Shown piece after piece: positions 46,111-60,928 of a stretch of 64,000 bases of DNA; position 1 is the stretch's first letter; each line of letters opens with the position of its first letter. Under the pieces are notes generated by a model. The model was given only the letters and a program-made list of their open reading frames with translations. It was not told where the DNA came from and did no database searches. The stretch is from Chromohalobacter moromii (lineage in GTDB: Bacteria > Pseudomonadota > Gammaproteobacteria > Pseudomonadales > Halomonadaceae): NCBI RefSeq assembly GCF_023091865.1, contig NZ_JAHXDI010000001.1:682001-746000 (forward strand). The letters run 5' to 3'. A program made the translations under genes and the position numbers.

Positions 46111-48074
46111 GCGACGCACAGTATTCCTTGATCCTGGAGGCGACGCCGCCTTCGCGCACGCGATTGTTCGAGAGCCTGACGTGGTGGGAGGCGCTGGGCT
46201 GGCTGCGTGCGCTGGATGCTCACTTCGTGCGCTTTCTCGCCGAGCACGACGCCCAGGCACCGGCCGAGGTCCTGCTGGCGGCGGCGCTCGCCAGCCATCA
46301 ACTGGGACGAGGCCATGTCTGCCTGGCGTTGTCGCGTGCCTTGGCAGCGCCGCGAGACGTGCTGTCGCTGCCGCCGCTGGAAGAAAGCGCGCCACAGGCC
46401 GAGGTGCCGCTTCCCGTGGACTTCCTTCAGGGATTGGATAGTGCTACCTGGGCGTCGCGATTGGCTGCGTCGCCATTGGTGGCGCCGCCCGGGCCGGGTA
46501 CCACGCCGTTAGTGCTGGAGGGCGAGCGATTGTATCTACGCCGCTACTGGTCGGCCGAACGAGCAGTGGCGGCGCATCTCGGTGAGCGTCTGGGGCGGCC
46601 TCTGCCGGTGGAGGCGTCGTTGGCCGACCCTTTGGCGCGGCTTTTTGCCGCGAACGCCACGCACGACGATACGCCGGATTGGCAGAAGGTGGCGTGCACG
46701 CTGGCGCTGCGTAACCGACTGACGATCATTTCCGGCGGCCCCGGCACCGGCAAGACCACGACCGTGACGCGGCTTTTGGCATTGCTTCAGACGCAGGCGC
46801 TGTCGTCGGCGGAGGCGACTAACGGTCTGCGTATCCAACTGGCCGCGCCCACCGGCAAGGCGGCGGCACGCTTGTCCGAGTCGATCGCTGGCGCGGTGCA
46901 GGATCTCGACGTCGGCGATGACGTCAAGGCGGCCTTGCCACGCGAGGCGTTGACGTTGCATCGCTTGCTGGGCGCGCGACCGGATACGCGTCGTTTTCGC
47001 CATCACGCCGGGCACCCGCTGAGTCTCGACCTGTTGGTGGTGGACGAAGCCTCGATGGTGGATCTGGAGTTGATGGCCGCGCTACTCGAGGCCATGCCGC
47101 CCGAGGCGCGTCTGATTCTGCTTGGCGACAAGGATCAGCTCGCCTCGGTGGAAGCCGGCTCGGTGCTTGGCGATCTTTGCGCCAATGCCCTGGATCAGGG
47201 CTATTCGCCTCATGCCTGTGACGTTCTCGAGCGGCTGGCGGGAATCTCGATGACACCCGATGCCGCGTGCTCGCCGCTGGCCGATCACGTGGTCATGCTG
47301 CGCAAGAGCTATCGCTTCGATGCGCATAGCGGCATCGGTGCCCTGGCGGCGGCGACCAATGCCGGCGACGTCGCGGCGTTTCGCCGTGCGTGGGACGCAG
47401 GTTACGCGGATATCGACTGGCTGGCGGCGGCGCATGATCGGGCGGCCATTGAGCGTGCCGCGCTGGCCGGCTATCGCGCTCTTTACCGGCGTATCGCGGC
47501 AGGCACCACGGCGGTAGAGGTGCTGGAACGGCTAGGGGACTTCCAGGTGCTGTGTGCGCTCAAACGTGGCCCCTGGGGCGTCGAGGGGCTCAACGCGCGT
47601 ATCGCCACACGTCTTTGGCGGGAAGGTTTCATCGACGATCACCAGGGTTGGTACGCCGGGCGCCCGGTGATGGTAACGCGTAACGATCCACAACTGGGGC
47701 TTTATAACGGTGACATCGGTATCGTCTTGCCCGACCCCGAGGCGCAGCAGCGTCTGCGGGTGTTTTTTGCGACCGCTGATGGCGCGCGGGCGGTGTTGCC
47801 TTCGCGTCTTGAGGCCTGCGAGACGGTGTTCGCGATGACGGTACATAAATCGCAGGGCTCCGAGTTCGACCACGTGCTGTTCGTACTGCCTGAGCACGCC
47901 ACCCCGATTCTGACTCGCGAGCTGGTGTATACCGGTATTACCCGCGCCAAGCGCCGGTTGACGTTGGCCGGCGGCGACGCGCGGGTCATGGACAGCGCGC
48001 TGCACCGACGCGTGGTACGTGACAGCGGCTTCGCCGACTGGGTGGCGGCATTGGAAGAGGAGGAGACATCATGA
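46107..48074 (+). CDS. recD: Exodeoxyribonuclease V alpha subunit
   Basis: 655 residues, SF1B helicase. Walker A GGPGTGKTTT is near residue 210, LLVVDEASMVDLELM is Walker B, LLGDKDQLASVEAGSVLGDL motif III, and TVHKSQGSEFDHVLFVLP and TGITRAKRRLTL the last motifs. It is the fast 5'-3' motor of RecBCD. Its stop overlaps the start of a creatininase-family gene (ATGA), which is unusual for a rec operon. Confidence 0.96.
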   Translation: MSDAQYSLILEATPPSRTRLFESLTWWEALGWLRALDAHFVRFLAEHDAQAPAEVLLAAALASHQLGRGHVCLALSRALAAPRDVLSLPPLEESAPQAEVPLPVDFLQGLDSATWASRLAASPLVAPPGPGTTPLVLEGERLYLRRYWSAERAVAAHLGERLGRPLPVEASLADPLARLFAANATHDDTPDWQKVACTLALRNRLTIISGGPGTGKTTTVTRLLALLQTQALSSAEATNGLRIQLAAPTGKAAARLSESIAGAVQDLDVGDDVKAALPREALTLHRLLGARPDTRRFRHHAGHPLSLDLLVVDEASMVDLELMAALLEAMPPEARLILLGDKDQLASVEAGSVLGDLCANALDQGYSPHACDVLERLAGISMTPDAACSPLADHVVMLRKSYRFDAHSGIGALAAATNAGDVAAFRRAWDAGYADIDWLAAAHDRAAIERAALAGYRALYRRIAAGTTAVEVLERLGDFQVLCALKRGPWGVEGLNARIATRLWREGFIDDHQGWYAGRPVMVTRNDPQLGLYNGDIGIVLPDPEAQQRLRVFFATADGARAVLPSRLEACETVFAMTVHKSQGSEFDHVLFVLPEHATPILTRELVYTGITRAKRRLTLAGGDARVMDSALHRRVVRDSGFADWVAALEEEETS

Positions 48075-48901
48075 ATGCTTCATCGCTTGAACATGCCGCG
48101 ATCGGTGGCATCGACTGGGCGTCGCTGAGCAGCCCCGAGTTGGCTCGGCACGTAGGCCCGGAGAGCGTGGCTTTATTGCCGCTGGGGGCCATTGAACAGC
48201 ACGGTGCGCACCTGCCGCTGTCGACCGATGTGGATATCGCCGACGGCCTGGTGGCGGCGGCTCGTACCCGCGTGGCACGCGACCTCGAGTTACTGGTACT
48301 GCCGACGGTGGCGGTGGGGGCGAGCATGGAGCATGGCGATTTCGCGGGCACCTTGAGTCTGACGCCGGAGATTGCCATTGCGCACTTGGTAGAGATCGGC
48401 GCCAGCGTGGCGCGCGCCGGGGTCCGCCGCCTGGTGCTGTTCAATAGCCATGGCGGCAATAAGGCGGTGGTCGATTTAGCGGCACTCAAGTTACGTGAGC
48501 GCCATGGCTTGCTGGTGGTCAAAGCGAATTACTTTCGCTTTGCGCCGCCCGACGACGCGCTGCCCGCCGAAGAATTGCGCCACGGGCTGCATGGTGGCGC
48601 GTTGGAAACCGCGATGATGATGCATCTTGCGCCACACAAGATACGCCAGGCCGAACTCGATGAGGCAGTCTCGCTAGGGGCTCATCAGGAACGCGCCGGG
48701 CGCACGCTACTCCCCGAGGGCGATGCTGGATTCGCCTGGATGGCGCAGGATCTGCACCCCAGCGGCGTGGTAGGCAACGCAACGCTGGCCACGCCGATCC
48801 TGGGAGAACGGTTGGTCGCGCATTTCGCTGGGCGTCTGGCGAGCGTGATCGAGGAAGCGCGCTGCTTTGATCTCGCCCAGCTACGCGAACAAGGCCCTTA
48901 G
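48071..48901 (+). CDS. Creatininase family protein (ArfB/MftE-like amidohydrolase)
   Basis: 276 residues. The metal ligands are intact: Glu42 and His44 in GAIEQHGAHLPL, Asp53 in STDVD, His127 in FNSHGGN, and a late Glu in LHGGALETAMM. Known members are creatininase, the mycofactocin peptidase MftE and the archaeal deformylase ArfB of flavin/F420 synthesis. The gene starts inside the recD stop codon and is probably translated from the recBCD message, yet it stands next to GTP cyclohydrolase II and a RibD-type reductase, which makes an ArfB-like role on a formamido-pyrimidine attractive. This function is inference; the substrate is unknown. Confidence 0.83.
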   Translation: MNASSLEHAAIGGIDWASLSSPELARHVGPESVALLPLGAIEQHGAHLPLSTDVDIADGLVAAARTRVARDLELLVLPTVAVGASMEHGDFAGTLSLTPEIAIAHLVEIGASVARAGVRRLVLFNSHGGNKAVVDLAALKLRERHGLLVVKANYFRFAPPDDALPAEELRHGLHGGALETAMMMHLAPHKIRQAELDEAVSLGAHQERAGRTLLPEGDAGFAWMAQDLHPSGVVGNATLATPILGERLVAHFAGRLASVIEEARCFDLAQLREQGP

Positions 48902-48951
48902 GATGAGTGGCGCGCCGGCATGGCGCGCGTCACCTTATTAGAGCGAGTTCA

Positions 48952-50103
48952 TTAGAGCGAGCCTGACGTATCGCGGCGCGGGACGCGCCTGTCGCTGGCG
49001 TCGGGGCTTTCGAGCAGGTCCTCCAGCCAGTGTCCGGCGCGTTCGGCCTTGGCGCTCAGGTAGCGTCGATTGTGCTCGTTGAGTTGGCCGTAGCAAGCTT
49101 CGCGGCCCACCACGTCGATGCCGCCGAGGCTCATGGCCGCGATCTTTTCGGGGTTGTTGGTCAAAAGCGCGATACGCGTGACATCGAGCTCGGCCAGCAT
49201 CTGCAACGCTGCGCGGTACTGCCGTTCGTCCTCGCCGAATCCCAGCACCTGATCGGCATCGACGGTATCCAGTCCGGCATCCTGCAGGCCATAGGCACGC
49301 AGCTTGTTGGCCAGGCCGATGCCGCGCCCTTCCTGGGCGAGATACAATAAGATACCGCCGCCACGTTCGCTAATGGCCGCCACGCTGGTGCGTAACTGTT
49401 CGCCACAATCGCAGCGCAGGCTACCGAACAAATCGCCTGTCAGGCAGGCCGAATGCAAGCGTACCGGCACGGCATCCGTCCAGTCGGCGGGATCGCCGAC
49501 GAGTACTGCCAGATGCTCGCGGAGGCCGTCGCTTTCACGGAACAGCACGAAGCGGGCGTGTTCGGCATTGGCGAGGGGCACGTCGGCTTCACTGATACGC
49601 TTGAGCGAGGTCATATCGCCTTCGCCATAGCGTTGCACGTCGTCGAGTGCCACACCGAGCAGAGTACCGTCGTCGATGAGCGCGGCCAGTGCCTCGCGCT
49701 GGGTGGCATCGACCCGGGCGCTGAGCGCGGCGGGGACCAGCAGGCCGCGTCGCATCAAGCCCAACGCGGCTGTCTCGGCAGCGGATGCGGGTTCGGGCGC
49801 ATTGGCGTTCGGAGGCTCGGCCATGGCGGCCATGGCCCAGGCGACGATATCGCGGGCACGGTGATGTCTGCCCAGGGGGAGGTGTACTGCGTCGGCGTCA
49901 TCGGGAGCGATTGCGCCCAGTCGGGCGAGACGATGCTTGGTGATCACCAGGCTTGGCGCATGGCCGGCCGTATTGGCAAGCTCAGCCAGAGCGGTGTCGT
50001 CGATGCCTTCCAATGGCTGGATCAAGATGTCTTCTTGCGGGGTTCGCAGCACGACCGGCAGGCCGCGGCGCAAGTCGAAGATTGCACGTTCTACCTGTCT
50101 CAT
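48952..50103 (-). CDS. ribA: GTP cyclohydrolase II with N-terminal extension
   Basis: 383 residues. The C-terminal half is a canonical GTP cyclohydrolase II: zinc ligands Cys220, Cys231 and Cys233 in CLTGDLFGSLRCDC, the GTP-binding YLAQEGRGIGLANKLRAYGLQ, and LLTNNPEKI near the end. Residues 1-170 form an additional domain that looks like a degraded relative of the DHBP synthase-type N-terminus; its key motifs were not recognised. The enzyme opens GTP to the diamino-pyrimidinone that starts flavin synthesis. Its position away from other rib genes and beside a lone RibD-type reductase suggests a dedicated second copy. AAGGAGAGG lies before the ATG. Confidence 0.88.
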   Translation of the reverse strand: MRQVERAIFDLRRGLPVVLRTPQEDILIQPLEGIDDTALAELANTAGHAPSLVITKHRLARLGAIAPDDADAVHLPLGRHHRARDIVAWAMAAMAEPPNANAPEPASAAETAALGLMRRGLLVPAALSARVDATQREALAALIDDGTLLGVALDDVQRYGEGDMTSLKRISEADVPLANAEHARFVLFRESDGLREHLAVLVGDPADWTDAVPVRLHSACLTGDLFGSLRCDCGEQLRTSVAAISERGGGILLYLAQEGRGIGLANKLRAYGLQDAGLDTVDADQVLGFGEDERQYRAALQMLAELDVTRIALLTNNPEKIAAMSLGGIDVVGREACYGQLNEHNRRYLSAKAERAGHWLEDLLESPDASDRRVPRRDTSGSL

Positions 50104-50145
50104 GAGCCTCTCCTTGGTTTTTGCGCGTCGTAATGCTTCGATGAC

Positions 50146-50157
50146 GTGTCATGACAC
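50146..50157. promoter_or_regulatory. 12-bp palindrome between ribA-like and RibD-like genes
   Basis: GTGTCATGACAC is self-complementary and lies in the 83-bp divergent promoter between the two starts (50103 and 50187). A regulator acting on both genes is possible. Confidence 0.4.
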
Positions 50158-50186
50158 TTTCGTTGGCACACGGCACTGGAGACCGT

Positions 50187-51032
50187 ATGAGCCCTGCGAC
50201 ACTCGATGTGGCGCTGGCCTGGCAAGGTATTCGCGAGGCTCGACGCCAGAACTGGGACGCCCATGCGGCGTTGACGCTGGCAGCCGGCCGGTTGCGAATC
50301 TGGCGCGGCGGCGCCTGGCAGGCCGACGCCCCGGTCACGGCGGAGGCGGCGGCACTGCTCGATAGCCTGCTGCCGAGCAGCGCCACGCCCGGGCGTTTCG
50401 TCATCGCGCAACTCGGGCAGAGCCTCGATGGACGTATCGCCACGGTCACTGGGGCCTCGCACTATGTCACTGGCGAGGCGAGCCGTGTGCATCTGCATCG
50501 CCTTCGCGCGCTGGTCGATGCCGTGGTCATCGGGGCGGGCACGGCTTGTGCCGACGACCCGCAACTCACCGTGCGGCATGTGACGGGGGACAACCCGGTA
50601 CGCGTGATTCTCGATCCCAACGGTCGCGTGCCCGCGACCAGTGGCGTACTTCAGCGCGGCGACGCCCCGACGTTGCATATCACCCGGCATCCGTTGCCGC
50701 GCGAAACCCTGGGCGCCCATGTCGAATCGCTGGTGCCCGACGGCGCGGCCGATCTGACGCCGTCCGCGATGCTCGACACCCTGGCGGCACGCGGGCTTCG
50801 ACGCGTGCTCATCGAAGGCGGCGGACAGACCGTGTCGCGCTTCCTGGCGGATGGTCAGCTCGACCGTTTGCATGTGGTCGTGGCACCGTTGCTGATCGGT
50901 TCGGGGCGCCCAGCGGTTAGCTTGGCCGAGATCGAGACCCTCGATGCCGCTCTGCGTCCGCCATGTCGCACGTTTGCGATGGGCGACGACACGCTGTTCG
51001 ATCTGGCGCTGCGTCCCGGTCACGTGGGGTAA
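50187..51032 (+). CDS. RibD C-terminal-domain reductase (no deaminase domain)
   Basis: 281 residues from ATG 50187 (TGGAG 6 bases upstream). From about residue 70 on it matches the RibD reductase domain: FVIAQLGQSLDGRIA, then SHYVTGEASRVHLHRLRALVDAVVIGAGTACADDPQLTVR, and LIEGGGQTVSRFL. The first 65 residues lack the zinc deaminase motifs of full RibD. Such stand-alone reductases include archaeal ArfC and fungal Rib7, which reduce the ribosylamino-pyrimidine before deamination. The stop codon abuts a MITE-like element. Confidence 0.85.
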   Translation: MSPATLDVALAWQGIREARRQNWDAHAALTLAAGRLRIWRGGAWQADAPVTAEAAALLDSLLPSSATPGRFVIAQLGQSLDGRIATVTGASHYVTGEASRVHLHRLRALVDAVVIGAGTACADDPQLTVRHVTGDNPVRVILDPNGRVPATSGVLQRGDAPTLHITRHPLPRETLGAHVESLVPDGAADLTPSAMLDTLAARGLRRVLIEGGGQTVSRFLADGQLDRLHVVVAPLLIGSGRPAVSLAEIETLDAALRPPCRTFAMGDDTLFDLALRPGHVG

Positions 51033-51173
51033 GAGGGTGTTTACAAAACAGGCGAACGATGGCAAGACAAGGCAAAATTGGCCGAAAACACGGAGTTTAC
51101 ATGGGGTAAATGAGTCTTTTGAGGCCGATTTTAACGCCGGATTGTCGAGTGCAGGCCTTTTGTAAATACCCTC
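51033..51173. mobile_element. MITE-like element with 16-bp terminal inverted repeats
   Basis: The left end gagggtgtttacaaaa (51033-51048) and the right end (51158-51173) match in 15 of 16 positions as inverted repeats. The 109 bp between them have no reading frame of note but include the partial palindrome gtttacatggggtaaat. The whole 141-bp unit fills the space between two convergent stop codons. No clear target duplication is visible; no transposase is present, so mobilisation would need one in trans. The type is familiar in gammaproteobacterial genomes, but the exact family was not identified. Confidence 0.65.
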
Positions 51174-51177
51174 TGCG

Positions 51178-52158
51178 TTATCGCGCATGGCAGCCTCCTC
51201 CGCTCTTGCTCGTTAGCGGGGCGCCTGTCGAGGTGTCACGGTCTCGACGCTGACGACGCCGGCGGCAGAGCATCCAGGCACCTGGCAGACTCGAGATCAG
51301 CACGATGACCCCGTAGATCAGCGAAATGGCCACGCCCTGGGCGGGCTCGAGCCCGGCGCCCATCCACACCAGTGCGGCGGCACTCTCACGGAGCCCCCAA
51401 CCGGCTATCGAGAGGGGAATCGCCATGACCATCAGCACCGGTGGAATCAAGGGCAACAGGGTGGCGAGGTCGATATCGGCCCCTACGGCACGGGCGGTGA
51501 TGGCATAGATCGTGATGTAGCTTGCCACGACACCCAGGGAGCTGAGGCATTGCCAGAGCCACATACGCGAGGCGACCAGGGCGGTGCCGAGATCGTCCAA
51601 TGTGTGATGCAGCCAGGCCGGCGGGTGGCGATACCCCCAGACTCCTAGCCCGCCCAGCACGATAACCCCTGTCGTCAGCGCCCCGGGGGCATTACCCAGC
51701 CGGGCAAGGCCACCGAGCACGCTATCGCGCAAGGTCGGTGAAGCTAGCAGTCCCATTATGGCGATCAGTGCCAGCATCAGTTGGCCGGAGAGGCGTTCGA
51801 TGATGACGGCGCGCCATGCCCGTGGTCGGTCCACGCTCGATCGGGCATGGCGCCAGGCTCGCGAGGCATCGCCCATTACCCCGCCCGGCAGTACTTGGTT
51901 GAGAAAGGTCGCCATGTAGTATTCCGCCACGGCACGACGTAGCGGCAGCGTTAGCCCCATGCGCCGGGCGGTCAGTCGCCAGCGCCAGGCGGAGAGCACG
52001 ACCTGGGGCACGCTGAGGGCCAATGCCAGCAATAGCCAGCCCGGGGCGGGGGCGACGAAAGCGTCGCGTAGTGCCTGGGCATCCAGTCGCCAGGCGAGCA
52101 GGCCGATCAAGGCGCCGCTGACACCCAGGCGCAGCCACATGGCGTTAGCGCGGGTCAT
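51178..52158 (-). CDS. Lysylphosphatidylglycerol synthase TM-region (UPF0104/flippase-like) membrane protein
   Basis: 326 residues from ATG 52158, which overlaps the methyltransferase gene by 14 bases (GGAG 8 bases upstream). About eight membrane helices; the segments RRAVAEYYMATFLNQVLPGGVMGDASRAW and SIAGWGLRESAAALVW are the hallmarks of the UPF0104/AglD-like family, whose TM region occurs with and without catalytic domains. Members are suspected lipid or polyprenyl-glycan transporters. It is the last gene of a chain from the PTPS-like gene through glycosyltransferase and methyltransferase. Confidence 0.82.
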   Translation of the reverse strand: MTRANAMWLRLGVSGALIGLLAWRLDAQALRDAFVAPAPGWLLLALALSVPQVVLSAWRWRLTARRMGLTLPLRRAVAEYYMATFLNQVLPGGVMGDASRAWRHARSSVDRPRAWRAVIIERLSGQLMLALIAIMGLLASPTLRDSVLGGLARLGNAPGALTTGVIVLGGLGVWGYRHPPAWLHHTLDDLGTALVASRMWLWQCLSSLGVVASYITIYAITARAVGADIDLATLLPLIPPVLMVMAIPLSIAGWGLRESAAALVWMGAGLEPAQGVAISLIYGVIVLISSLPGAWMLCRRRRQRRDRDTSTGAPLTSKSGGGCHAR

Positions 52159-53011
52159 GGTCCGGCTCCGGTGCGGCGAACACATCGCGATGACCGACGT
52201 AGAGGTCGACCTGGCCTTGATCCAGCGCTTCGCGGCGACGTCGCCACCAGCGGTCGATACGTGCGCGTTCTTCCGGCGCCTGTTCGCGGGCGGCCTCGGC
52301 CCAGCCGTCGAGCAAGCTCAGGGCCAGAGGGCGTTGGGCGGGGCCCAGTCGCCAAGGACTCGGGGCATCGACGAGCCGGAAACCCCGGTCGCCGAAGGCA
52401 GTGGCGAGCGCCTGAGGGGCGGCCGTGCCCAAGGCAGGCCCGAAGCCCTTGTCGCGGCGCTGATGCGCGGCCAGGGTGGCGAACAACCAAGCATCGTCGC
52501 GATCGGTAGCATCGGCGTCGTTGGTACAAAAGCGCGTATCGCCCTCCACGCTTAGGGTGATCAGGGCGGCGCAGCGATGAACCGCACAGGCGTCGGCGAG
52601 GGCCTCGACCCAGGTGGCGCTGACCAGATCGCACAGCGCCGAGGCGGTGACCAGATCGACGTTTGTCAGCCAATCTGCCGCCAAGGCGTTCAGATCGTGT
52701 TGCTGGGTGGTCAGGCGAATCGGCATGCCGTCCATGTCGCGAAGCGGTTGGCAGCGTCCCAAGGCATGCTCCAGCAGATCGGCGTCATGATCGACGAGCC
52801 GCCATGTCTGAGGCCCGGGAAGACGCGGTGTGAGATAGCGCACGTTGGCACCGCTGCCGCTGCCCAGATCGACGAGTCGTGCTTCGCGTGCCTGGCAGTG
52901 TGCGGCAAGCCAGTCGCCGGCGGCCTGCAAGGGAGCCGTGGCGCGAGCGTCGTGGTCGGCCTGCTCGCGCATCGCCAGCCAAGACTCGCTGAACGTACCG
53001 GCGGCGTTCAT
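52145..53011 (-). CDS. SAM-dependent methyltransferase-like protein
   Basis: 288 residues from ATG 53011, overlapping the GT4 stop (ATGA). Motif I is VDLGSGSGANVRYL near residue 47, followed by WRLVDHDADLL as the SAM ribose-binding acid. LVTASALCDLVSATW is the post-motif region. Overall it is a class I fold; the methyl acceptor is unknown. Its strict coupling to the glycosyltransferase suggests modification of the same product. Confidence 0.78.
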   Translation of the reverse strand: MNAAGTFSESWLAMREQADHDARATAPLQAAGDWLAAHCQAREARLVDLGSGSGANVRYLTPRLPGPQTWRLVDHDADLLEHALGRCQPLRDMDGMPIRLTTQQHDLNALAADWLTNVDLVTASALCDLVSATWVEALADACAVHRCAALITLSVEGDTRFCTNDADATDRDDAWLFATLAAHQRRDKGFGPALGTAAPQALATAFGDRGFRLVDAPSPWRLGPAQRPLALSLLDGWAEAAREQAPEERARIDRWWRRRREALDQGQVDLYVGHRDVFAAPEPDHDPR

Positions 53012-54057
53012 GCGGCGCCTCGTTGCAAAGCGGCGGCGAAGGCCGAACCGACCTGCGACCAGTCGCGCTGCGAGGCTCGTGCACGCTCGGCGCCTTCGCG
53101 CCATGCCTGACGCTTGCGCGGGTCACCGAGCATCTCGCGCAGGGCGTCGGCAAGCGCAGCGACATCGCCGGCGGGCACCTTCAGGCCGGCCTCGTCGGGC
53201 AGGGTATGCGCCAGCGCCCCTCCGGTCGTGGTGATCACGGGCAAGGCATGTGCCAAGGCCTCGCTGACGACCATGCCGTAGCCTTCGTAATGCGAGGGCA
53301 GCACGAAGATGTCGCTGGTGTGATAAGCCTCGCTGAGGGCGTCGGCAGGCCGCTCGCCGAGCAAGTGGACGCGTTCTTCAAGGCCATGGGCGGCGATACG
53401 TGCCTGGACATGCTCGACATGCGCCGGTGCCCGATCCAGACCACCGATGCAATCGCATGTCCAGGGCAGGTCGGTCAGCGTGGCCAGCGCTTCGACGAGC
53501 ACATCATGCCCCTTGCGCGGAGTGACCGTAGCCACGCACAAAAGGCGAGGCACCTCAGCATTGCCACGTGCCGGCGCGGCGCGCATCACGCCGGGTTCGA
53601 CCACATGCAAGCGTTCGGCCGTCACACCGAAATCGGCGAGGCGGCGAGCGGTGAACGCACTGGTGACGATGACATCGCGCACGGCCGACAGCGCCCGGGT
53701 TTCGCTGATCGTGAAACGTTCGCGTTCGGCGTCACCAAGACCGGTTTCGTCGGCGAGCGGATGGTGAACCAGGGCGGTGAGCGTCAAGCGCTGGGCATGG
53801 GGTTCAAGTACGTCGGGCAACCCACCCATCGCGAGTCCGTCGATAATGACATGGGCGCCTTCGGGCTGGGCCGCCAAGGCGTTTTCCAGTGCCTTTTTTG
53901 CCGTGGCGTCGGGGGCGGGAAAACGCCCCTCGAGGCCGATGACCTCGACCGACCAGCCGTGTTCGCGCAGGGCCGTGACGACGCGCGCATCGTAAATGTA
54001 GCCGCCGGTCAACTGATCGGGATCGCCGGCCACGATCAATGTCAGCACTTCGCTCAT
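53008..54057 (-). CDS. GT4-family glycosyltransferase
   Basis: 349 residues, GT-B fold. The N-terminal Rossmann half starts with [20 protein letters not shown]; the C-terminal half has [20 protein letters not shown] and the donor-binding [19 protein letters not shown] with the family's E-x7-E. The acceptor and sugar donor are unknown. It starts in the stop codon of the PTPS-like gene (ATGA), so the pterin-type protein and the transferase are made together. Confidence 0.88.
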
Positions 54058-54452
54058 ATCGCGCCCTCGTAACTGGCCCAGGCGATATGCGACTCATGTA
54101 GCGTGACACTGAGGGCCGTCAGGCCATGCCCGGTCTCGCCGAGTTCGCCCTGGCGAATGGCGTGGGCGAGCCGCTCGAAAATCACCTTGGCCATGAACTC
54201 GGTGGTGGTGTTGCGCCCCTGGAACTCGGGAACCTCGTCGAGGTTGTTGAAATTGAGCTCGCTCAGCACGCGGGAAAGTGTCTGGCTGGCCAGGCCGATG
54301 TCGACGATCAAGTCGTCACGGTCGAGTTCGGGGCGCTTGAAGGCGACATCGACCACATAGGTAGCGCCGTGCAAACGTTGCGCGGGGCCGAATATCTCGC
54401 CGTTGAAGCTGTGCGCGATCATGAAATGATCTCGAACCGTTAGGCTGAACAT
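54054..54452 (-). CDS. 6-pyruvoyltetrahydropterin synthase-like protein with altered active site
   Basis: 132 residues from ATG 54452 (AAAGGAG upstream). The T-fold PTPS/QueD family is recognisable by [25 protein letters not shown] and [13 protein letters not shown]. Compared with E. coli QueD, the catalytic Cys27 position is Ala24, the zinc His33 of the HGH motif is Ala30, and the Asp-His pair of LDH is Asn67-Phe68; His14, His28 and Glu120 remain. It probably cannot do QueD chemistry and may bind or modify another pterin-like ligand, or serve as a scaffold. Upstream is a GCCGGT-N9-ACCGGT inverted repeat (54474-54494). Confidence 0.82.
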
Positions 54453-54473
54453 CCGTGTGGCTCCTTTTGTATT

Positions 54474-54494
54474 GCCGGTATGTGTATGACCGGT
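54474..54494. promoter_or_regulatory. Inverted repeat upstream of the PTPS-like gene
   Basis: gccggt (54474-54479), 9 bases, accggt (54489-54494). It lies in the 80-bp gap between the MDR gene's stop and the PTPS-like start, a possible operator or weak hairpin. Confidence 0.35.
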
Positions 54495-54532
54495 TATGCG
54501 TTTTATGTGGGCGTCGTCGCATAGTGGCAGCG

Positions 54533-55510
54533 TCAGGCATAGCGTATGCGATGGCACAGTGGCGGGCGATCCGCGTCGCTCAGCCGTGCCAACGCGGCGG
54601 GTAGGTCAAGGAAGTCGCTTTCGCCGTCGATCAAAGCATCGAGGCGGGCATCGCGTAGTAGCGTTAGGGCCAGTTGTAGACGCTGAGCATGGCTGCGCCG
54701 CGCGCGTCTTGCTGGCGAGACACCGCCGACCTGGCTGGCACGCAGCGTTAACCGCTGCGAGTGGAAAGCCTCGCCGAGGGGCAATGTTACCTCGTCGCGT
54801 CCAAACCAACTCAGTTCGATGATTTCTGCTTCGTATCCCGCCAGTTCAAGGGCGCTGCGCAGGCCATGCGGGTTGCCGCTGGCATTGATCACGATGTCTT
54901 GTTCCTCCTCGGCATCGTGCGGGTGGCGAAACGGCAAGCCCAACGCGGCGGCCAATTCGGCCTTACCGGCATCGATGTCGAGCAGTTGCACGCGAACACC
55001 AGCCGTTTGTTGGCATAACCAGGCGACCAGGTTGCCGACCACGCCGGCGCCGATGACGCTGATCCGGTCGCCGACGCGTGGGGCGGCGTCCCACAAAGCG
55101 TTGACGGCGGTTTCCATGTTGGCCGCGAGGACCGCACGTGTGGCGGGAAGATCCTCGGGTAAGGGCACGACGGCCTCGATGGGAACGACGTAACGTGTCT
55201 GGTGAGGATAAAGACAGAAGACTTCGCGACCACACCAAGCCTCCGGCCCCTCTTCGACCACGCCGACGTTGGCATAGCCATATTTTACCGGCCCCGGGAA
55301 ATCCCCTTCTTGAAAAGGCGCGCGCATGCGGGTGTATTCGCTCTCCGGGACCTTGCCTTGAAAAACCAGGCTTTCGGTGCCGCGGCTGACGGCGCTGTAG
55401 CGTGTTCTGACCAACAGCTCATGCGTCTGGCGGCTAGGCAAGGCGTGCTGTCTAATTTCACCGTGCCCCGGTGCCTGTATCCAAAAGGCTTGGGCGTTCG
55501 TTGCGAGCAT
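54533..55510 (-). CDS. MDR-superfamily dehydrogenase lacking zinc ligands
   Basis: 325 residues. The MDR core is visible: the N-terminal [15 protein letters not shown] where alcohol dehydrogenases have the zinc-binding Cys-Gly-Thr, and the cofactor-binding [16 protein letters not shown] near residue 150. The catalytic Cys is replaced by Arg and the structural four-cysteine lobe is missing, so no zinc is expected. The RGTE motif recalls the BchC-like branch. It is the first gene of the minus-strand chain MDR-PTPS-GT4-methyltransferase-UPF0104. AAGGAG precedes the ATG. Confidence 0.8.
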
Positions 55511-55689
55511 GGCAAATCTCCTTATTCACCTTGAGTATCGTCCATGACACCATTCATGTACAGGTATTGTACATAGAGGCGTTTGTGTACCATTTTATTT
55601 TGAGTATTGAGTGCTATCAGCGTAGTGAAAATCGCGCTGTTTATTGGGCCTTCTGCCATAGTTAGACGCAGACGTTGGGGAGAAAGGTC
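55511..55689. promoter_or_regulatory. Divergent promoter region with paired TGTACA motifs
   Basis: AT-rich region between the MDR gene and the CDP-alcohol phosphatidyltransferase gene. TGTACA (55557-55562) and TGTACA (55568-55573) form an ATGTAC-N7-GTACAT inverted repeat, with a further GTGTACC nearby. Such pairs remind one of MerR-family (CarH/LitR-like) operators, but this is from memory and weak. It likely drives both directions of the cluster. Confidence 0.4.
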
Positions 55690-56442
55690 ATGCGTGACAC
55701 ATCACACCACGCCACTGGTCGCAGAGCATCGTGGGTACATGGGTTGCCGGCGGTATTGGAACTACTGTTGGGCTTGTGCCTGGTGGGGCTGTTGGTGGAA
55801 ACCCTCCAGTGGCATTTGGCGGCGCCCCCTGGGCTTGGCTGGACGGTAGGGGGCGTGTATCTGGCGATGGCGGTCATGATCGTATGGGGGTGGCCAGTAG
55901 CATTGCGTTGGCTGGGCTGGGCCAATCGTGTGACCTTGCTGCGTGGGGTATTGATCGCACTGCTGGCCGGTAGTATGGCGTTTCCCGCCTTTATGCAGCG
56001 TCATGCGCTGGAAATGGTTGGGTTGGCATTGTTGGCCTTGTGCTTGGATGGCATCGACGGCTGGGTAGCACGACGTACGCATTCCGCCACGGCCTTCGGT
56101 GCCCGGTTTGACATGGAGCTGGATGCCTTCTTCATCGCAGTGTTGTGCTGCGCGCTCGTGGTGCTCGACAAGCTGGGCGGTTGGGTGCTGTTATGCGGGG
56201 CGCTGCGATATGTCTTCGTCGCGGCAGGATATGCATGGACATGGTTGCGGTGGCCGTTGCCGTCGAGTTTACGCCGTAAGGTGATTTGCGTGTGGCAGGT
56301 GATCAGCCTTCTGGCGGCGTTACTGCCTTGGGTACCGCCCTTCTGGGCCACTTGGAGTGTGGGCCTGGCGCTGGTATTGCTGTGGTACTCGTTCATGAGT
56401 GATGTTGCGTGGCTATATCGCCGCCGACGCATGTGTGTCTGA
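55690..56442 (+). CDS. CDP-alcohol phosphatidyltransferase
   Basis: 250 residues from ATG 55690, preceded by GGAGAAAGG. The complete family motif D-G-x2-D-G-x2-A-R-x8-G-x3-D-x3-D runs from LDGIDGWVARR to FGARFDMELD (about residues 120-146), with six or so membrane helices. It transfers a phosphatidyl or similar group from a CDP-activated lipid to an alcohol. The acceptor is unknown; the enzyme is divergent from the PTPS/GT4 chain and may link the product to a lipid. Confidence 0.85.
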   Translation: MRDTSHHATGRRASWVHGLPAVLELLLGLCLVGLLVETLQWHLAAPPGLGWTVGGVYLAMAVMIVWGWPVALRWLGWANRVTLLRGVLIALLAGSMAFPAFMQRHALEMVGLALLALCLDGIDGWVARRTHSATAFGARFDMELDAFFIAVLCCALVVLDKLGGWVLLCGALRYVFVAAGYAWTWLRWPLPSSLRRKVICVWQVISLLAALLPWVPPFWATWSVGLALVLLWYSFMSDVAWLYRRRRMCV

Positions 56443-56525
56443 CAGTGGGCTCACGATCTCGGAGAGATTAGGGCTCCAGCGACGGCTAAATGTAATGATT
56501 CAGCTCATACGCTTGATCGGCCCGT

Positions 56526-57338
56526 CTAGTGGTGCTCTTCAAGATGATTCAGGTGGTTGATGAACTGCGTGAAAATTTCCGCCTGAGTGGAGGTGTTCAG
56601 TCGCGTATGGATGTTCTTGCGATGCACCTTTACGGTACCGACGCTGATTTTTAGGTGGTCGGCAATCGCTTGAGAAGAAAAACCCCGCAGGATGAGGTCG
56701 GTAATTTCCCGTTCACGCTGCGTCAGCACGCCACTGGCGAAAGTGCGCAGCGCGCGCTTCATGGGGCCGTCGGAACGGCCGTATTGCAGGAACTCGTCGG
56801 ACTGGATCTGCCAGAACTGGCGCATGAGCGCGCTGATGACCGGGTGAAACTCTTGTAGGGCATTCAACTCGGTGCGCGAAATGCTTTCTAGTGAGGCTTT
56901 TCGCCCGAGCGTGATGGCGCAGGTCACTTCGTCATCGAGACGGATCAAGAGATTGATTTCATCCACCAGCCCGAAGTTCTGGTAGCAGGTTTGATAGTAC
57001 TCAGTGCTCTTGAAGGAATCCGGCATGATGTCGGCAAGTCGTACGATGCCGGGGGAGGCAGTGTCCTTGATGGCGTGGAAAAGCGGGTCGAGTACATAGG
57101 CATGATTGATGTACTGGCGCAGAGTATCGCTCTGCTCCGCCGGATCGGAAGGATGGACGAGAATCGGTCGCAGCGATTTTTTGTAGGTCAGTAGCAAAAT
57201 CGTGTCGAAGAAACACAGAGTCGACAGGAAGGCCTCCAGCATCGCCGGAAAACTGCGCAGTCGCTGATGCTCGATGAGTACGGCCAAGTTTTTCTGCCAA
57301 CTTTCATTGGTCTGTATCTGATTGACGCGATCTCTCAT
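56526..57338 (-). CDS. LuxR family transcriptional regulator
   Basis: 270 residues. The C-terminal LuxR/GerE HTH is clear from about 203 to 262 (LTQREREITDLILRGFSSQAIADHLKISVGTVKVHRKNIHTRL). The N-terminal 180 residues are not a typical autoinducer or receiver domain; they contain several acidic and aromatic patches and may sense a small molecule. It is divergent from the glutamine synthetase-like gene and 228 bp away, pointing to control of the polyamine genes. Confidence 0.85.
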   Translation of the reverse strand: MRDRVNQIQTNESWQKNLAVLIEHQRLRSFPAMLEAFLSTLCFFDTILLLTYKKSLRPILVHPSDPAEQSDTLRQYINHAYVLDPLFHAIKDTASPGIVRLADIMPDSFKSTEYYQTCYQNFGLVDEINLLIRLDDEVTCAITLGRKASLESISRTELNALQEFHPVISALMRQFWQIQSDEFLQYGRSDGPMKRALRTFASGVLTQREREITDLILRGFSSQAIADHLKISVGTVKVHRKNIHTRLNTSTQAEIFTQFINHLNHLEEHH

Positions 57339-57566
57339 CGCTTGTCCTTGCTCGTGTACGCCGCCGGCAGGGCGTTATCGGGAATTTCCCCAAGGCTAAG
57401 CTAGATGGTGGGCTGGCACCAGTCCGGCGCGCCTTCGGGCCATGCGGCAGGCAGAGATAAATGACGTCTTACACCGACCGGATACCCCTGGGGTGATAGA
57501 TACACCGCTATCTGGATGGGATATCTTGATGCTCTGATTTTCGAAAAGCATTCAAGAGTCACGCGT
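57339..57566. promoter_or_regulatory. Divergent region with ACCCCTGGGGT palindrome
   Basis: The 228-bp gap between the LuxR gene and the GS-like gene. The 11-bp palindrome ACCCCTGGGGT (57484-57494), contained in TACCCCT-GGGGTGATA, is a good candidate site for a LuxR-HTH protein, which often bind TACCNNT-type heptamers. It lies about 75 bp upstream of the GS-like start. Confidence 0.5.
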
Positions 57567-58916
57567 ATGGCGACGCATAACAAACAGGACAAGACCCGCG
57601 ATCTGGATCTCTTCATCACGGATTTGAACGGGAACTTACGCGGCAAGCGCCTGCCTGCCAGCGGTTTGAAAAAGGTTCGCAAGGAAGGGCTCAAGCTGCC
57701 GCGTTCGGTGGTGGGATTTGATTTCTGGGGCGCCGATGTTCTGGCCAATGGGCTGGTATTCGAGACCGGTGACAGTGATGGTGTTTGCATGCCTGTCAGC
57801 CAAGAGCCGATTCCTGTGCCCTGGTCGGAGGCGCCGCGTGACCAGATGTTGGCGATGATGTTCAATCCCGATGGCACGCCCTTCGAGGCCGATCCTCGGC
57901 AGGTGCTAAAGCGCATGGTGGATCGCTTCGCCGAAAAGGGGCTGACACCGGTGATGGCCACCGAACTCGAGTTTTACCTGATGGATGCCGAGTCGGAAAG
58001 CGTCCAGCGGCCGATTCCGCCGGGACTGGCCGATGGTAAAGGGCGTCGCCTCGCCAATGCGGAAGGTTATTCCGTTGAGGAAATGGATGGCTTCGAGGCC
58101 TTCTTCGCGGATATCCGCGCGGCTTGCCAGGCACAGGGGATCGGCGCCGACACCATCATTGCCGAGATGGGCCCCGGGCAGTTCGAGGTGAACCTCAACC
58201 ACGTGGCCGATCCGCTGAATGCGGGCGATCAGGCGATTCTCTTCAAGCGTCTCGTACGTGGTGTTTCCCGTCGCCACGGTTATTCGGCGACCTTCATGGC
58301 CAAGCCTTACGTCGAGGAAAGCGGCAACGGCTTTCACACGCATTTCAGCCTGCTCGACCGCGACGGTCACAATGTCTTCGATGACGGCACCGAGCAGGGC
58401 AGTGATCTATTGCGCCATGCCATCGCCGGGCTGATGCAGTTGATGCCGGAGAGTATGCTGGTGTTCGCGCCGCATCTGAACTCCTATCGTCGCTTCATGC
58501 CGGGCGCCCATGCTCCGACCCATGCTAGCTGGGGCTACGAGAACCGGACGGTGGCCCTGCGTGTGCCGGAAAGCCCTAATCAGGCGCGGCGGATCGAACA
58601 TCGGGTGGCCGGTGCGGATGCCAATCCGTATCTGGTATTGGCATCCATTCTCGCCGGTGCGCTGCATGGCATGGAAAACGCACTCGAGCCGGATGCCCTG
58701 GTGGAAGGTGATGCTTACGCCGAAGAGAATCCCCAATATCCGTTGCCTTGTGAATGGCAGGACGCCATCTCTCGCTTCGAGCAGAGCGAGAAACTCAGGG
58801 AATACCTGAGCGACGAGTTCGTGCGTGTCTACGCGCATGCCAAATGTCAGGAGCGCCGCCTTTTGAACGAGCGCATCTCCGATGTTGAATATGAGGCCTA
58901 TCTGGGATTGCTCTGA
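57567..58916 (+). CDS. Glutamine synthetase family protein, gamma-glutamylpolyamine synthetase-like
   Basis: 449 residues from ATG 57567; an earlier ATG at 57516 is possible but homologues begin near DLDLFITDLNGNLRGK. GS-fold residues are present: ATELEFYL with metal-binding Glu, EMGPGQFEVNLNH, NGFHTHFSL with the ATP-contacting His, and GYENRTVALRVP with the Arg pair. It belongs to the PuuA-like branch that glutamylates putrescine or other amines at the expense of ATP. Neighbours (GATase, agmatine deiminase, class III aminotransferase) support a polyamine substrate. Confidence 0.85.
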   Translation: MATHNKQDKTRDLDLFITDLNGNLRGKRLPASGLKKVRKEGLKLPRSVVGFDFWGADVLANGLVFETGDSDGVCMPVSQEPIPVPWSEAPRDQMLAMMFNPDGTPFEADPRQVLKRMVDRFAEKGLTPVMATELEFYLMDAESESVQRPIPPGLADGKGRRLANAEGYSVEEMDGFEAFFADIRAACQAQGIGADTIIAEMGPGQFEVNLNHVADPLNAGDQAILFKRLVRGVSRRHGYSATFMAKPYVEESGNGFHTHFSLLDRDGHNVFDDGTEQGSDLLRHAIAGLMQLMPESMLVFAPHLNSYRRFMPGAHAPTHASWGYENRTVALRVPESPNQARRIEHRVAGADANPYLVLASILAGALHGMENALEPDALVEGDAYAEENPQYPLPCEWQDAISRFEQSEKLREYLSDEFVRVYAHAKCQERRLLNERISDVEYEAYLGLL

Positions 58917-58957
58917 CCCCGGCCAGGCCTGATAAGACCGTGAGCGAGGAATCAGTC

Positions 58958-59689
58958 ATGACGCTGAAAGTCGGCATACTGGCCACCGGCACGACGCCGG
59001 ACAACCTGATCGAAATGTATGGTTCCTACGCCGACATGTTCGTTCGTTTGTTCGGGCAAGCCGGTTATGCCTTTACCTTCATTACCTTCGATGTCCGGGA
59101 CGATATCTTTCCCGAATCAGCCGATGCCTGTGATGCCTGGATCATCACCGGCTCGAAGTCCAGCGTCTGCGACAAGACACCCTGGATGGCACGGTTGAAA
59201 GCCCTGATCCTGGAAATCTACGACACCGGACGTCCGATCGTGGGCATTTGCTTCGGCCACCAGATCGTGGCGGAAGCCTTCGGCGCCGACGTTAACCAGT
59301 ACCCGCAAGGCTGGGGCGTGGGACTGCATACCTATCGACTGGAGAAGAGCGTGCCGGAACTGAGCGCCCTGGATGGCCGATTCACGCTGAATGCAGTGCA
59401 TCAGGATCAGGTGCTGAGCAAACCGGAGCAGGCTGAGGTCATCGCCTCTTCGGCGTTCTGCCCGTTTGCGGCCCTTCAGTACGACGACCGCATCCTGACC
59501 CTCCAGGCGCATCCAGAGTTCGACGTGGCGTTCGAAACGCGGTTGCTTCAGTCACGTCGCGACGCCCCGATTCCGTCGACGGCGACCGACCCGGCGCTGG
59601 TCGCGCTCGACGAGGCGTCGGCGCAGACGGATTCGCTGCAGGTCGCCCACTGGATGGCCGAGTTCCTGCAGCAGGGGCGACGTCGTTGA
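58958..59689 (+). CDS. Class I glutamine amidotransferase
   Basis: 243 residues from ATG 58958, with AGGA 9 bases upstream; a GTG at 58940 lacks a site. Catalytic Cys in GICFGHQIV and His in LQAHPEFD; the third residue Glu is in the same AHPEF segment. It resembles GMP-synthase-type GATases rather than PuuD. It follows the GS-like gene by 41 bp and probably removes or transfers gamma-glutamyl groups in the same route. Confidence 0.85.
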   Translation: MTLKVGILATGTTPDNLIEMYGSYADMFVRLFGQAGYAFTFITFDVRDDIFPESADACDAWIITGSKSSVCDKTPWMARLKALILEIYDTGRPIVGICFGHQIVAEAFGADVNQYPQGWGVGLHTYRLEKSVPELSALDGRFTLNAVHQDQVLSKPEQAEVIASSAFCPFAALQYDDRILTLQAHPEFDVAFETRLLQSRRDAPIPSTATDPALVALDEASAQTDSLQVAHWMAEFLQQGRRR

Positions 59690-59750
59690 GCGTGCTCACG
59701 CGTTATCTGAAAACGCTCGGCTTGCCCATACAACGCTCGATGTGGCCATT

Positions 59751-59791
59751 CGGGATCAGGCGGGCCATGTCGCGATAGCCCGATGATCCCG
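59751..59791. terminator. Two-tier hairpin between GATase and agmatine deiminase genes
   Basis: CGGGATCA (59751-59758) pairs with TGATCCCG (59784-59791), and CGGGC (59761-59765) with GCCCG (59778-59782). It sits between convergent genes; no T-run follows, so termination is uncertain. Confidence 0.5.
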
Positions 59792-59807
59792 AAAGCCCGT
59801 GCAACGC

Positions 59808-60920
59808 TCAGACACGCGGCTGCTGTTGGGTGATGCAGTGGATGTTGCCGCCGCCGAGCAGGACCTCGCGGGCATCGACGGCGACCACTCGGCGGTCTGG
59901 AAACAAGTTCTCGAGAATGGCGCGAGCCTCGTCGTCATGTGCCGGGTCGAGCCTGGGCATCACCACCACCGAGTTGCCGATGTAGAAATTGACGTAGGAG
60001 GCGGCCATGCGGTCGCCCGGTTGCCGTGGACGCGAACTGCTCAGACGGTCGACGCCGCTGGCTTCGGTCTCGGCGATGGTCAGCGGGCCGGGCATCGGTA
60101 GCTTGTGCACGGTCAGCCGCCGCCCCCTGGCATCGGTGGCCGCCTCGAGAATCCCCAGAGCCTCGCGAGAGATGGCATGTTGCGGATCGCTATCGTCATC
60201 GGTCCAGGTCAGGGCCACTTCGCCGGGGGCGACGAAGCAGCACAGGTTGTCGACGTGGCCGTCGGTCTCGTCCTGGAAACAGCCCCGCGGCAGCCAGATG
60301 ATCTTTTCGACACCCAGGTAGGCACACAACAGCCGTTCGATCTCGGGCTTGTCGAGATCGGGATTGCGATTGGGGTTGAGCAGGCATTCCTCGGTAGTGA
60401 TCAGGGTCCCCTCGCCATCGACGTGGATGGCCCCCCCTTCGACCACCAGCGGGGTGATGAAGCGTTCGATACCGAGTACCTCGGCGATCTTCTGGCGGAT
60501 GCGACGATCCTTGTCCCAGGGAAAGTAGAGCCCACCGTTGAGTCCGCCCCAGGCGTTGAATTCCCAGTCGACCATGGCCAGGCGACCATCCGGATGGGTC
60601 AGGAAGGTCGGCCCGACATCGCGCATCCAGGCGTCGTTACTGGAAAGCTCGATCACTCGGATGTGGCTCGGCAACTGGTTGCGGGCGTTCTCGTATTGAT
60701 CGTCGTTGACGCCGACGAATACCGTCTCGCTCTCGGCGATCGCCCGGGCCACGGCGACGAACGCCGCCTGGGCCGGCTTGGCGCCATAGCGCCAGTTGTC
60801 GGGACGCTGTGGCCAGAGCATCCAGCAGGCGTCGTGCGCGGCGAACTCGGCGGGCATGCAAAAACCGCGTTCTGCCGGGGTGGCGGTGCGACGCTCCGTC
60901 GCGATGTCTGTGTCGTTCAT
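59808..60920 (-). CDS. aguA: Agmatine deiminase
   Basis: 370 residues from ATG 60920 (GAGG 8 bases upstream). Family landmarks are WPQRPDNWR near the N-terminus, NDAWMRDVGPTF, the acidic VEGGAIHVDGEGT and the catalytic Cys in GGGNIHCITQQ near the C-terminus. It hydrolyses agmatine to N-carbamoylputrescine and ammonia. The AguB amidase that would finish the conversion to putrescine is not in the window. It is downstream of, and almost touching, the NhaC-type antiporter gene (8-bp gap). Confidence 0.95.
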   Translation of the reverse strand: MNDTDIATERRTATPAERGFCMPAEFAAHDACWMLWPQRPDNWRYGAKPAQAAFVAVARAIAESETVFVGVNDDQYENARNQLPSHIRVIELSSNDAWMRDVGPTFLTHPDGRLAMVDWEFNAWGGLNGGLYFPWDKDRRIRQKIAEVLGIERFITPLVVEGGAIHVDGEGTLITTEECLLNPNRNPDLDKPEIERLLCAYLGVEKIIWLPRGCFQDETDGHVDNLCCFVAPGEVALTWTDDDSDPQHAISREALGILEAATDARGRRLTVHKLPMPGPLTIAETEASGVDRLSSSRPRQPGDRMAASYVNFYIGNSVVVMPRLDPAHDDEARAILENLFPDRRVVAVDAREVLLGGGNIHCITQQQPRV

Positions 60921-60928
60921 GACGAACC

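Follow-up and report, generated by a model that had tools for sequence, protein, structure and literature searches.

A cluster of nine adjacent genes was analysed in a 64,000-nucleotide stretch of the Chromohalobacter moromii genome (Halomonadaceae; contig NZ_JAHXDI010000001.1, positions 682,001 to 746,000), here referred to as the window. The genes lie between recD and a luxR-type gene (window positions 48071-56442), and an initial annotation had described them as an orphan cluster of flavin- and pterin-type enzymes with sugar, methyl and lipid genes, possibly producing a pyrimidine- or pterin-derived glycoconjugate. All nine genes were confirmed, and their family names hold in Pfam and NCBIfam and, for the methyltransferase, by fold. 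The genes and a DNA element between two of them are as follows:

48071..48901, plus strand: creatininase-family amidohydrolase (PF02633, 217 bits), a proposed formamidase acting on the GTP cyclohydrolase II product
48952..50103, minus strand: GTP cyclohydrolase II (GCHII; RibA2; GTP_cyclohydro2, 183 bits), with an N-terminal extension of ~165 residues ahead of the GCHII domain
50151..51032, plus strand: stand-alone RibD_C reductase (144 bits), without the deaminase domain
51178..52185, minus strand: UPF0104/LPG_synthase_TM membrane protein (140 bits), a proposed flippase
52145..53011, minus strand: S-adenosylmethionine (SAM) methyltransferase (MT), with fold matches; the open reading frame (ORF) opens at 53104, with the likely true start at 53011
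53008..54057, minus strand: family 4 glycosyltransferase (GT4; 108 bits), with an EX7E motif
54054..54452, minus strand: PTPS-IV (FGPAQ) T-fold protein (PTPS, 90 bits); catalytic Cys, catalytic His and one zinc ligand lost, Glu120 kept
54533..55510, minus strand: BchC-like medium-chain dehydrogenase/reductase (MDR), with weak family matches
55557..55591, no strand: operator-like element TGTACA-N5-TGTACA-N12-TGTACC, between the divergently read mdr and cdp genes
55675..56442, plus strand: CDP-alcohol phosphatidyltransferase (CDP-OH_P_transf, 61 bits), with an intact DGx2ARx8Gx3Dx3D motif

The minus-strand unit, first described as four overlapping or abutting genes, comprises five, which read as one unit in the order MDR-PTPS-GT4-MT-UPF0104 (55510 to 51178). 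MDR and PTPS are 80 bp apart, whereas PTPS/GT4 and GT4/MT each overlap by 4 bp. The GCHII gene is also on the minus strand, set apart from this unit by the plus-strand RibD gene, and the creatininase and recD genes share 4 bp. Two family assignments are weaker than the others. The MDR protein scored 19.7 bits for PF00107 (cut-off 31.8) and was not matched by the Pfam ADH_N domain, and the NCBIfam model that fitted it best, BchC, gave 45.5 bits against a cut-off of 291. In Pfam, the methyltransferase fell under the cut-off; its predicted model (pLDDT 90.7) matches SAM methyltransferases by fold, with E values down to 3.8e-12 and TM-scores of ~0.4-0.6. Its start is probably at 53011 rather than 53104, because of the ATGA overlap with the GT4 stop.

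The nine genes form a real conserved cluster across distant bacterial phyla. A comparison of the PTPS alignment A2 with genome contigs matched at least 595 stretches, with at least 584 relatives, and the best 80 loci were kept; the counts describe these nearest 80 loci and lean towards close kin. The PTPS, MDR and MT genes were present in all of the 67 full loci (at least 18 kb; 13 of the 80 were shorter and were left out), followed by GT4 (66), CDP-alcohol (63), UPF0104 (60), creatininase (49), GCHII (49) and the RibD reductase (44). The objection foreseen in the initial annotation, that the genes separate in related genomes, does not apply. The 80 loci span four phyla and 33 genus-level groups, of which 21 are Pseudomonadota, nine Actinomycetota, two Gemmatimonadota and one Acidobacteriota, a spread much wider than the initial annotation could show. 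As a control, the genes that flank the cluster in the window were counted in the same 80 loci, and recD was found in eight, luxR in one and glnA in one, all of them Halomonadaceae.

The closest named locus among the matches listed was that of Chromohalobacter sp. 11-W, with 98% in PTPS. A set of 58 related genomes, counting that of the window itself, yielded the PTPS protein in 25; in these 25 loci (~3.4 kb each) it is adjoined by MDR and GT4 every time and by MT in 24. An unsupervised ORF comparison of the 80 loci revealed no further family of similar spread; the next commonest were an FkbM methyltransferase (20), a family at ~19 kb (17), YceI (15) and a family-2 glycosyltransferase (14). In Halomonas/Vreelandella-type loci (L055 16221-19078 and kin), the FkbM methyltransferase and family-2 glycosyltransferase genes lie past the creatininase end, and in Methylosinus (L141 6079-7881) a gene annotated MdoH (glucan glucosyltransferase) adjoins MDR.

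Wider samples were taken from the phylum and from plasmids. PTPS-IV was present in 19 of 299 genomes (own included) at E <= 1e-15, and 14 stretches of ~20 kb from this sample, representing 11 genera, contained PTPS (14), MDR (14), GT4 (14), RibD (13) and MT (12), then GCHII (6), CDP-alcohol (3), UPF0104 (3) and creatininase (1). PTPS-IV also matched 28 plasmid records. Among the seven examined, PTPS was found in seven, MDR and MT in six each, GT4 and RibD in five each, CDP-alcohol in four, UPF0104 in two, and creatininase and GCHII in one each. Six of the seven carry the cluster, and one of these is haloarchaeal (L139), with relatives of creatininase, CDP-alcohol, MDR, PTPS, GT4 and MT within 10 kb. 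On a Streptomyces anthocyanicus plasmid, the PTPS-IV gene (L143 9001-9426) is located beside MEKHLA and cupin genes.

The PTPS-like protein of the window carries the sequence FGPAQ, invariant in both PTPS alignments (A1 and A2, 15 rows each), which is described in passages of two papers as the mark of the PTPS-IV subfamily of COG0720 (PMC5445326; PMC5041015). Its nearest structure, by sequence and by fold, is Streptomyces SCO6650 (PDB 3d7j), with 204 bits and E 6.5e-60 by profile, and 62% identity and a TM-score of 0.95 by fold. The paper on the SCO6650 structure reportedly found neither zinc nor PTPS activity in the protein. The protein is thus of the PTPS family, as first annotated, but it is no normal PTPS, since catalytic residues are lost. 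With the roles of the zinc His and of the catalytic Cys, Asp and His presumed from the classical enzymes, the catalytic Cys position is Ala in 101 of 102 PTPS-IV sequences and the third zinc His is Ala in 101 (HGH to HGA). The catalytic Asp position holds Asp in only three and the catalytic His position never holds His, the pair being replaced mostly by Asn-Tyr/Phe. The classical PTPS/QueD site, with three zinc His plus catalytic Cys, Asp and His, is therefore not present in PTPS-IV. Glu120 (the anchor) and the zinc residues His14 and His28 are retained in all 102.

A second part of the cluster probably serves the opening of GTP. The RibA2 of the window keeps three Cys and a Tyr, which we take to be the zinc ligands and the catalytic residue of GCHII, respectively. 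Of 59 cluster GCHII sequences, 36 have Tyr at the catalytic place and 17 have Met instead; His stands there in three, Gln and Ile in one each, and the last sequence shows a gap, being matched as a GCHII fragment only (L121). Met at this place is presumably the mark of SCO6655, a formamidopyrimidine (FAPy)-forming GCHII that stops at the formyl intermediate; the window enzyme, with Tyr and not Met, is not of the SCO6655 type at the catalytic place. All of the Met, His and Gln copies are actinobacterial, and creatininase accompanies 21 of these 21, versus 27 of the 36 Tyr copies (Fisher p 0.019, with lineages that are not independent, and leaving out the Ile copy of Halomonas L074, which has creatininase). 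A strict rule that would confine the formamidase to loci whose GCHII lacks the Tyr fails on those 27 loci.

GCHII and creatininase are coupled in the 67 full loci, where both were present in 47, neither in 16 and one alone in four, which suggests the deformylation of a formylpyrimidine. The creatininase residues E42, H44, D53, H127 and E179, which we take to be the metal site, are invariant in nine aligned sequences, and the protein scored 26.7 bits against the ArfB model (cut-off 180). A documented parallel is BrbF of Sinorhizobium and Brucella, a creatininase-family enzyme that deformylates the opened-GTP intermediate according to passages of PMC9478397; BrbF differs in being encoded beside MarR and CobW genes and in serving riboflavin, and is likened here by family and function only. 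The cluster GCHII has at least two origins, since a single one was rejected (approximately unbiased [AU] test, p 4.6e-45), only with the Actinoplanes copies included. For the main actinobacterial and the proteobacterial copies, a shared origin was not rejected (AU p 0.063). The GCHII tree left out 19 near-duplicate or short rows and the test nine more long-branch rows, and both were quick trees.

The closest solved relative of the RibD part is 6p8c, named 2,5-diamino-pyrimidinone phosphate reductase, and 2azn is also in the top two. The database name of 2azn is that of a uracil-type reductase, and we assume that its substrate is the diamino compound. These stand-alone diaminopyrimidinone phosphate reductases resemble the cluster protein in having RibD_C without a deaminase, and they serve riboflavin. 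Because the deaminase domain is absent and the nearest relative is 6p8c, the intermediate should keep its 2-amino group, which should be what the anchor Glu of PTPS-IV binds.

The remaining genes could be involved in decorating and exporting a product. The CDP-alcohol enzyme of the window has an exact DGx2ARx8Gx3Dx3D motif, and a slightly relaxed form was found in 80 of the 81 copies of the family. Some of the enzyme's weak database relatives presumably use a polyol phosphate as acceptor, which fits ribityl phosphate as the substrate. A YceI gene adjoins the CDP-alcohol gene in 22 of 102 cluster sources (one distant YceI, in L115, was not counted), and cytochrome b561 was found in or beside the cluster in nine, with MT and RibD on either side of it in five. 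Pfam was used to check two of the cytochrome proteins and one YceI. The window contains neither YceI nor cytochrome b561. These neighbours suggest redox work at the membrane.

Taken together, we tentatively propose, with confidence somewhat short of even, that the cluster makes a GTP-derived compound with a ribityl phosphate chain, in which the 2-amino-4-oxo ring of guanine survives. We infer all of the reactions, the product, the lipid link, the redox role and the light response from what the sequences show, namely the gene content and its conservation, the lost residues, the pairing of creatininase with GCHII and a shared DNA element. RibA2 would open GTP, and the creatininase-family enzyme would remove the formyl group, or complete its removal, giving 2,5-diamino-6-ribosylamino-pyrimidinone phosphate. 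The stand-alone RibD reductase would then convert the ribose to ribityl with the ring not deaminated, and PTPS-IV and the BchC-like dehydrogenase could carry out ring closure or side-chain redox, with the pterin-anchoring Glu of PTPS-IV kept and the classical zinc and Cys-His chemistry lost. Glycosylation would fall to GT4 and methylation to the methyltransferase. Where a lineage has the lipid genes, the CDP-alcohol transferase would join the ribityl phosphate to a lipid and UPF0104 would move the product across the membrane, placing at the cell envelope a redox or photoprotective molecule next to cytochrome b561 and YceI. The most likely product would be a 2-aminopyrimidine or pterin ribityl glycoconjugate, lipid-linked where the CDP-alcohol gene occurs. 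The initial interpretation is thus partly supported, being right in outline, with a changed role for PTPS and an optional lipid module.

Several observations weigh against this proposal. A Tyr-type GCHII should need no formamidase, yet creatininase is present in 27 of the 36 Tyr loci; those without it are two from Actinoplanes and seven of alphaproteobacterial type. In NCBIfam the RibD part scores slightly higher for the bacterial RibD model (117 bits) than for the archaeal diamino reductase (112 bits), both below cut-off, and a local RibD reductase was found in only six of 27 full actinobacterial loci. The haloarchaeal PTPS (L139 8971-9375) departs from bacterial PTPS-IV in retaining a zinc-like HSH motif. 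On plasmids, the S. anthocyanicus PTPS-IV has no cluster partner at all, and one Rhodobacteraceae plasmid lacks GT4.

The lipid link is exposed to a further objection, as 11 of the 14 phylum-sample stretches have no lipid genes near PTPS-IV, and a genome-wide test of 15 genome handles (two of which lead to one Rhodospirillaceae genome) found none in 11. At E <= 1e-12, the CDP-alcohol gene of the cluster family was found neither in Xenophilus nor in ten genomes from further classes of the phylum, presumably Alphaproteobacteria. In Granulosicoccus it lies ~11 kb from the cluster, and in Endozoicomonas and the Rhodospirillaceae genome it is likewise located elsewhere. These absences would be expected if the product were a soluble glycosylated pterin of the cyanopterin or limipterin type, a photoprotective or cofactor glycoside with CDP-alcohol and UPF0104 as mere frequent neighbours, and a pteridine glycosyltransferase activity is known, with tetrahydrobiopterin as the acceptor of the Chlorobium enzyme in passages of PMC5683033. 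The cyanobacterial and Chlorobium glycosyltransferases resemble the cluster in placing a sugar on a pteridine. We know of no set of GCHII, RibD and CDP-alcohol genes that accompanies them. The frequency of CDP-alcohol (63/67) and UPF0104 (60/67) in the full loci, the intact catalytic motif, and the presence of GCHII and RibD parts, with no GTP cyclohydrolase I recognised by eye among the conserved families, argue against a soluble pterin, which we consider unlikely, though a serious competitor. The inclusion of lipid genes in the initial set therefore stands for most of the nearest loci, where the lipid module belongs to the cluster, and the module is optional elsewhere.

An additional module for riboflavin supply, of the kind suggested for the flavins that Sinorhizobium secretes, could account for GCHII, the RibD reductase and an enzyme of the creatininase family, to which the riboflavin formamidase BrbF also belongs (parts of PMC9478397). 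The initial annotation named, as a finding that would count against it, a ribA-like gene that is the sole GCHII and plainly serves riboflavin; the cluster gene is not the sole one, as the genome has three PF00925 genes, the cluster GCHII and two others, and RibD_C in two places. One of the other PF00925 genes is a RibBA-like frame whose GCHII half has no zinc Cys in the alignment, and the other RibD, a full one of 389 residues, shows a deaminase motif in its translation. With separate ribA, RibBA-like and full RibD genes, the cluster is not needed for riboflavin supply. Moreover, PTPS, MDR, GT4 and MT are kept in the 16 full loci without GCHII and creatininase, and to our knowledge they have no flavin role. 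Metdi4691 of Methylobacterium (clade III of the BrbF tree), a distant creatininase homologue, failed to rescue a riboflavin auxotroph (PMC9478397, in part). A riboflavin module is thus very improbable. An ordinary PTPS-family role in queuosine, folate or tetrahydrobiopterin synthesis, or an F420 assignment, would agree with the 6-carboxytetrahydropterin synthase annotation in the plasmid records examined and with an archaeal F420 link to PTPS-IV mentioned as unpublished data in a passage of PMC5041015, but it is hardly credible given the losses of Cys, zinc His and the Asp-His pair, and que, fol or F420 genes were not recognised by eye among the conserved families.

Regulation of the cluster was approached through the TGTACA element of the divergent mdr/cdp region. 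Its N5 form is unique in the window up to one mismatch, and exact N5 sites were found in 18 of 185 loci (some of them the same place twice), corresponding to the own genome, nine genomes of the same genus and five Salinicola-genus places, before mdr each time; the N5 spacers vary in Salinicola, and Salinicola L048 is without the site. In 101 upstream regions, with up to two mismatches, spacings of N5 (15 versus 0.4 at random), N12 (8 versus 0.25) and N23 (7 versus 0.2) were raised, as were N10 (6 versus 0.1) and N21 (4 versus 0.25), among kin that are not independent. Across the 3.47 Mb of the genome, three sites come near to the N12 form, against none for a backward control. They lie in the mdr/cdp region, at a gene for a 330-residue CarH-like MerR protein, and inside an open frame, the last of which was discounted for that position. 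The site at the MerR gene overlaps the first codons of the longest ORF, ~60 bp before a likelier ATG with AGGAGG.

The CarH-like gene (within C5:54000-73000) is followed by photolyase, SnoaL-like, short-chain dehydrogenase/reductase, amine oxidase, DUF1365 and cyclopropane-synthase (CMAS) genes, a set that we take to be a light-responsive LitR cluster. The locus resembles the CarH/LitR regulon in this combination, and its N12 TGTACA element is shared with the mdr/cdp region. The protein scored 65 bits for MerR, 19.6 for PF02310 (cut-off 32.1) and 16.8 for PF02607 (cut-off 23), and its best PDB match was CarH (5c8d). In Halomonadaceae, the product may therefore be made under a CarH/LitR-like regulator responding to light or singlet oxygen.

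Other results speak against light control. Only Chromohalobacter and Salinicola (L048 excepted) show the element clearly, and a few Halomonas have a weaker one. When one mismatch is allowed, the N5 form occurs at three places in the genome and its backward control also at three, so the N5 form was set aside as evidence and the N12 form and the conserved place were used. A second exact N5 site (C1:422485-422501) lies between two PAS-domain chemotaxis receptor genes. The CarH-like protein differs from the known regulators in missing the curated cut-off (107.9 of 400 bits) and in its degenerate B12 domains, which fall below the Pfam cut-offs, and the LitR/CarH operator consensus is a presumed one. 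A PF02607 search of the genome retrieved a single frame, which at 1268 residues is long enough to be taken for MetH; a BLUF gene was not found in the genome, and no photolyase or LitR relatives turned up in the 102 cluster sources. Light control of mdr/cdp in two or three genera is a good lead. A broader reading, in which the cluster would define a new and widely distributed class of redox cofactor in the envelope of bacteria and haloarchaea, seems improbable; the cofactor would be a glycosylated ribityl-pterin (or aminopyrimidine) anchored in the membrane, induced by light or singlet oxygen and acting as electron partner to cytochrome b561.

The word orphan, used initially, holds only in part. 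PTPS-IV (FGPAQ) beside PF00925 and RibD_C was reported in a 2017 network paper (PMC5445326), and the structure 3d7j had been solved. The PTPS-IV account of that paper gives no pathway or product, no lipid, glycosyl or methyl module, no redox partner and no light element, and it calls PF00925 GTP cyclohydrolase I/FolE2, whereas the Pfam name is GTP cyclohydrolase II. It was the only paper found in openly licensed literature that links these families; no paper on the gene set itself was found there, which is weak evidence of absence, and among the matches listed the locus names SCO6650-SCO6655 appeared in one metabolic-model paper only. No product was found for this cofactor-like gene set, which recurs across at least four bacterial phyla and has a relative in haloarchaea. 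If the proposed pathway is true, it would provide a function for the solved but unassigned structure 3d7j and for PTPS-IV proteins annotated as 6-carboxytetrahydropterin synthase in the records examined, with at least 584 relatives matched, and it predicts a GTP-derived intermediate, mutant phenotypes, a light response and a product in the lipid fraction.

Beyond the cluster, window positions 56526-60932 contain the LuxR-type gene (Pfam GerE) followed by three genes that were named by eye from their translations (glutamine-synthetase-like, class I amidotransferase-like and agmatine-deiminase-like), and the G+C content drops to ~56-58% across window positions 55000-58000.

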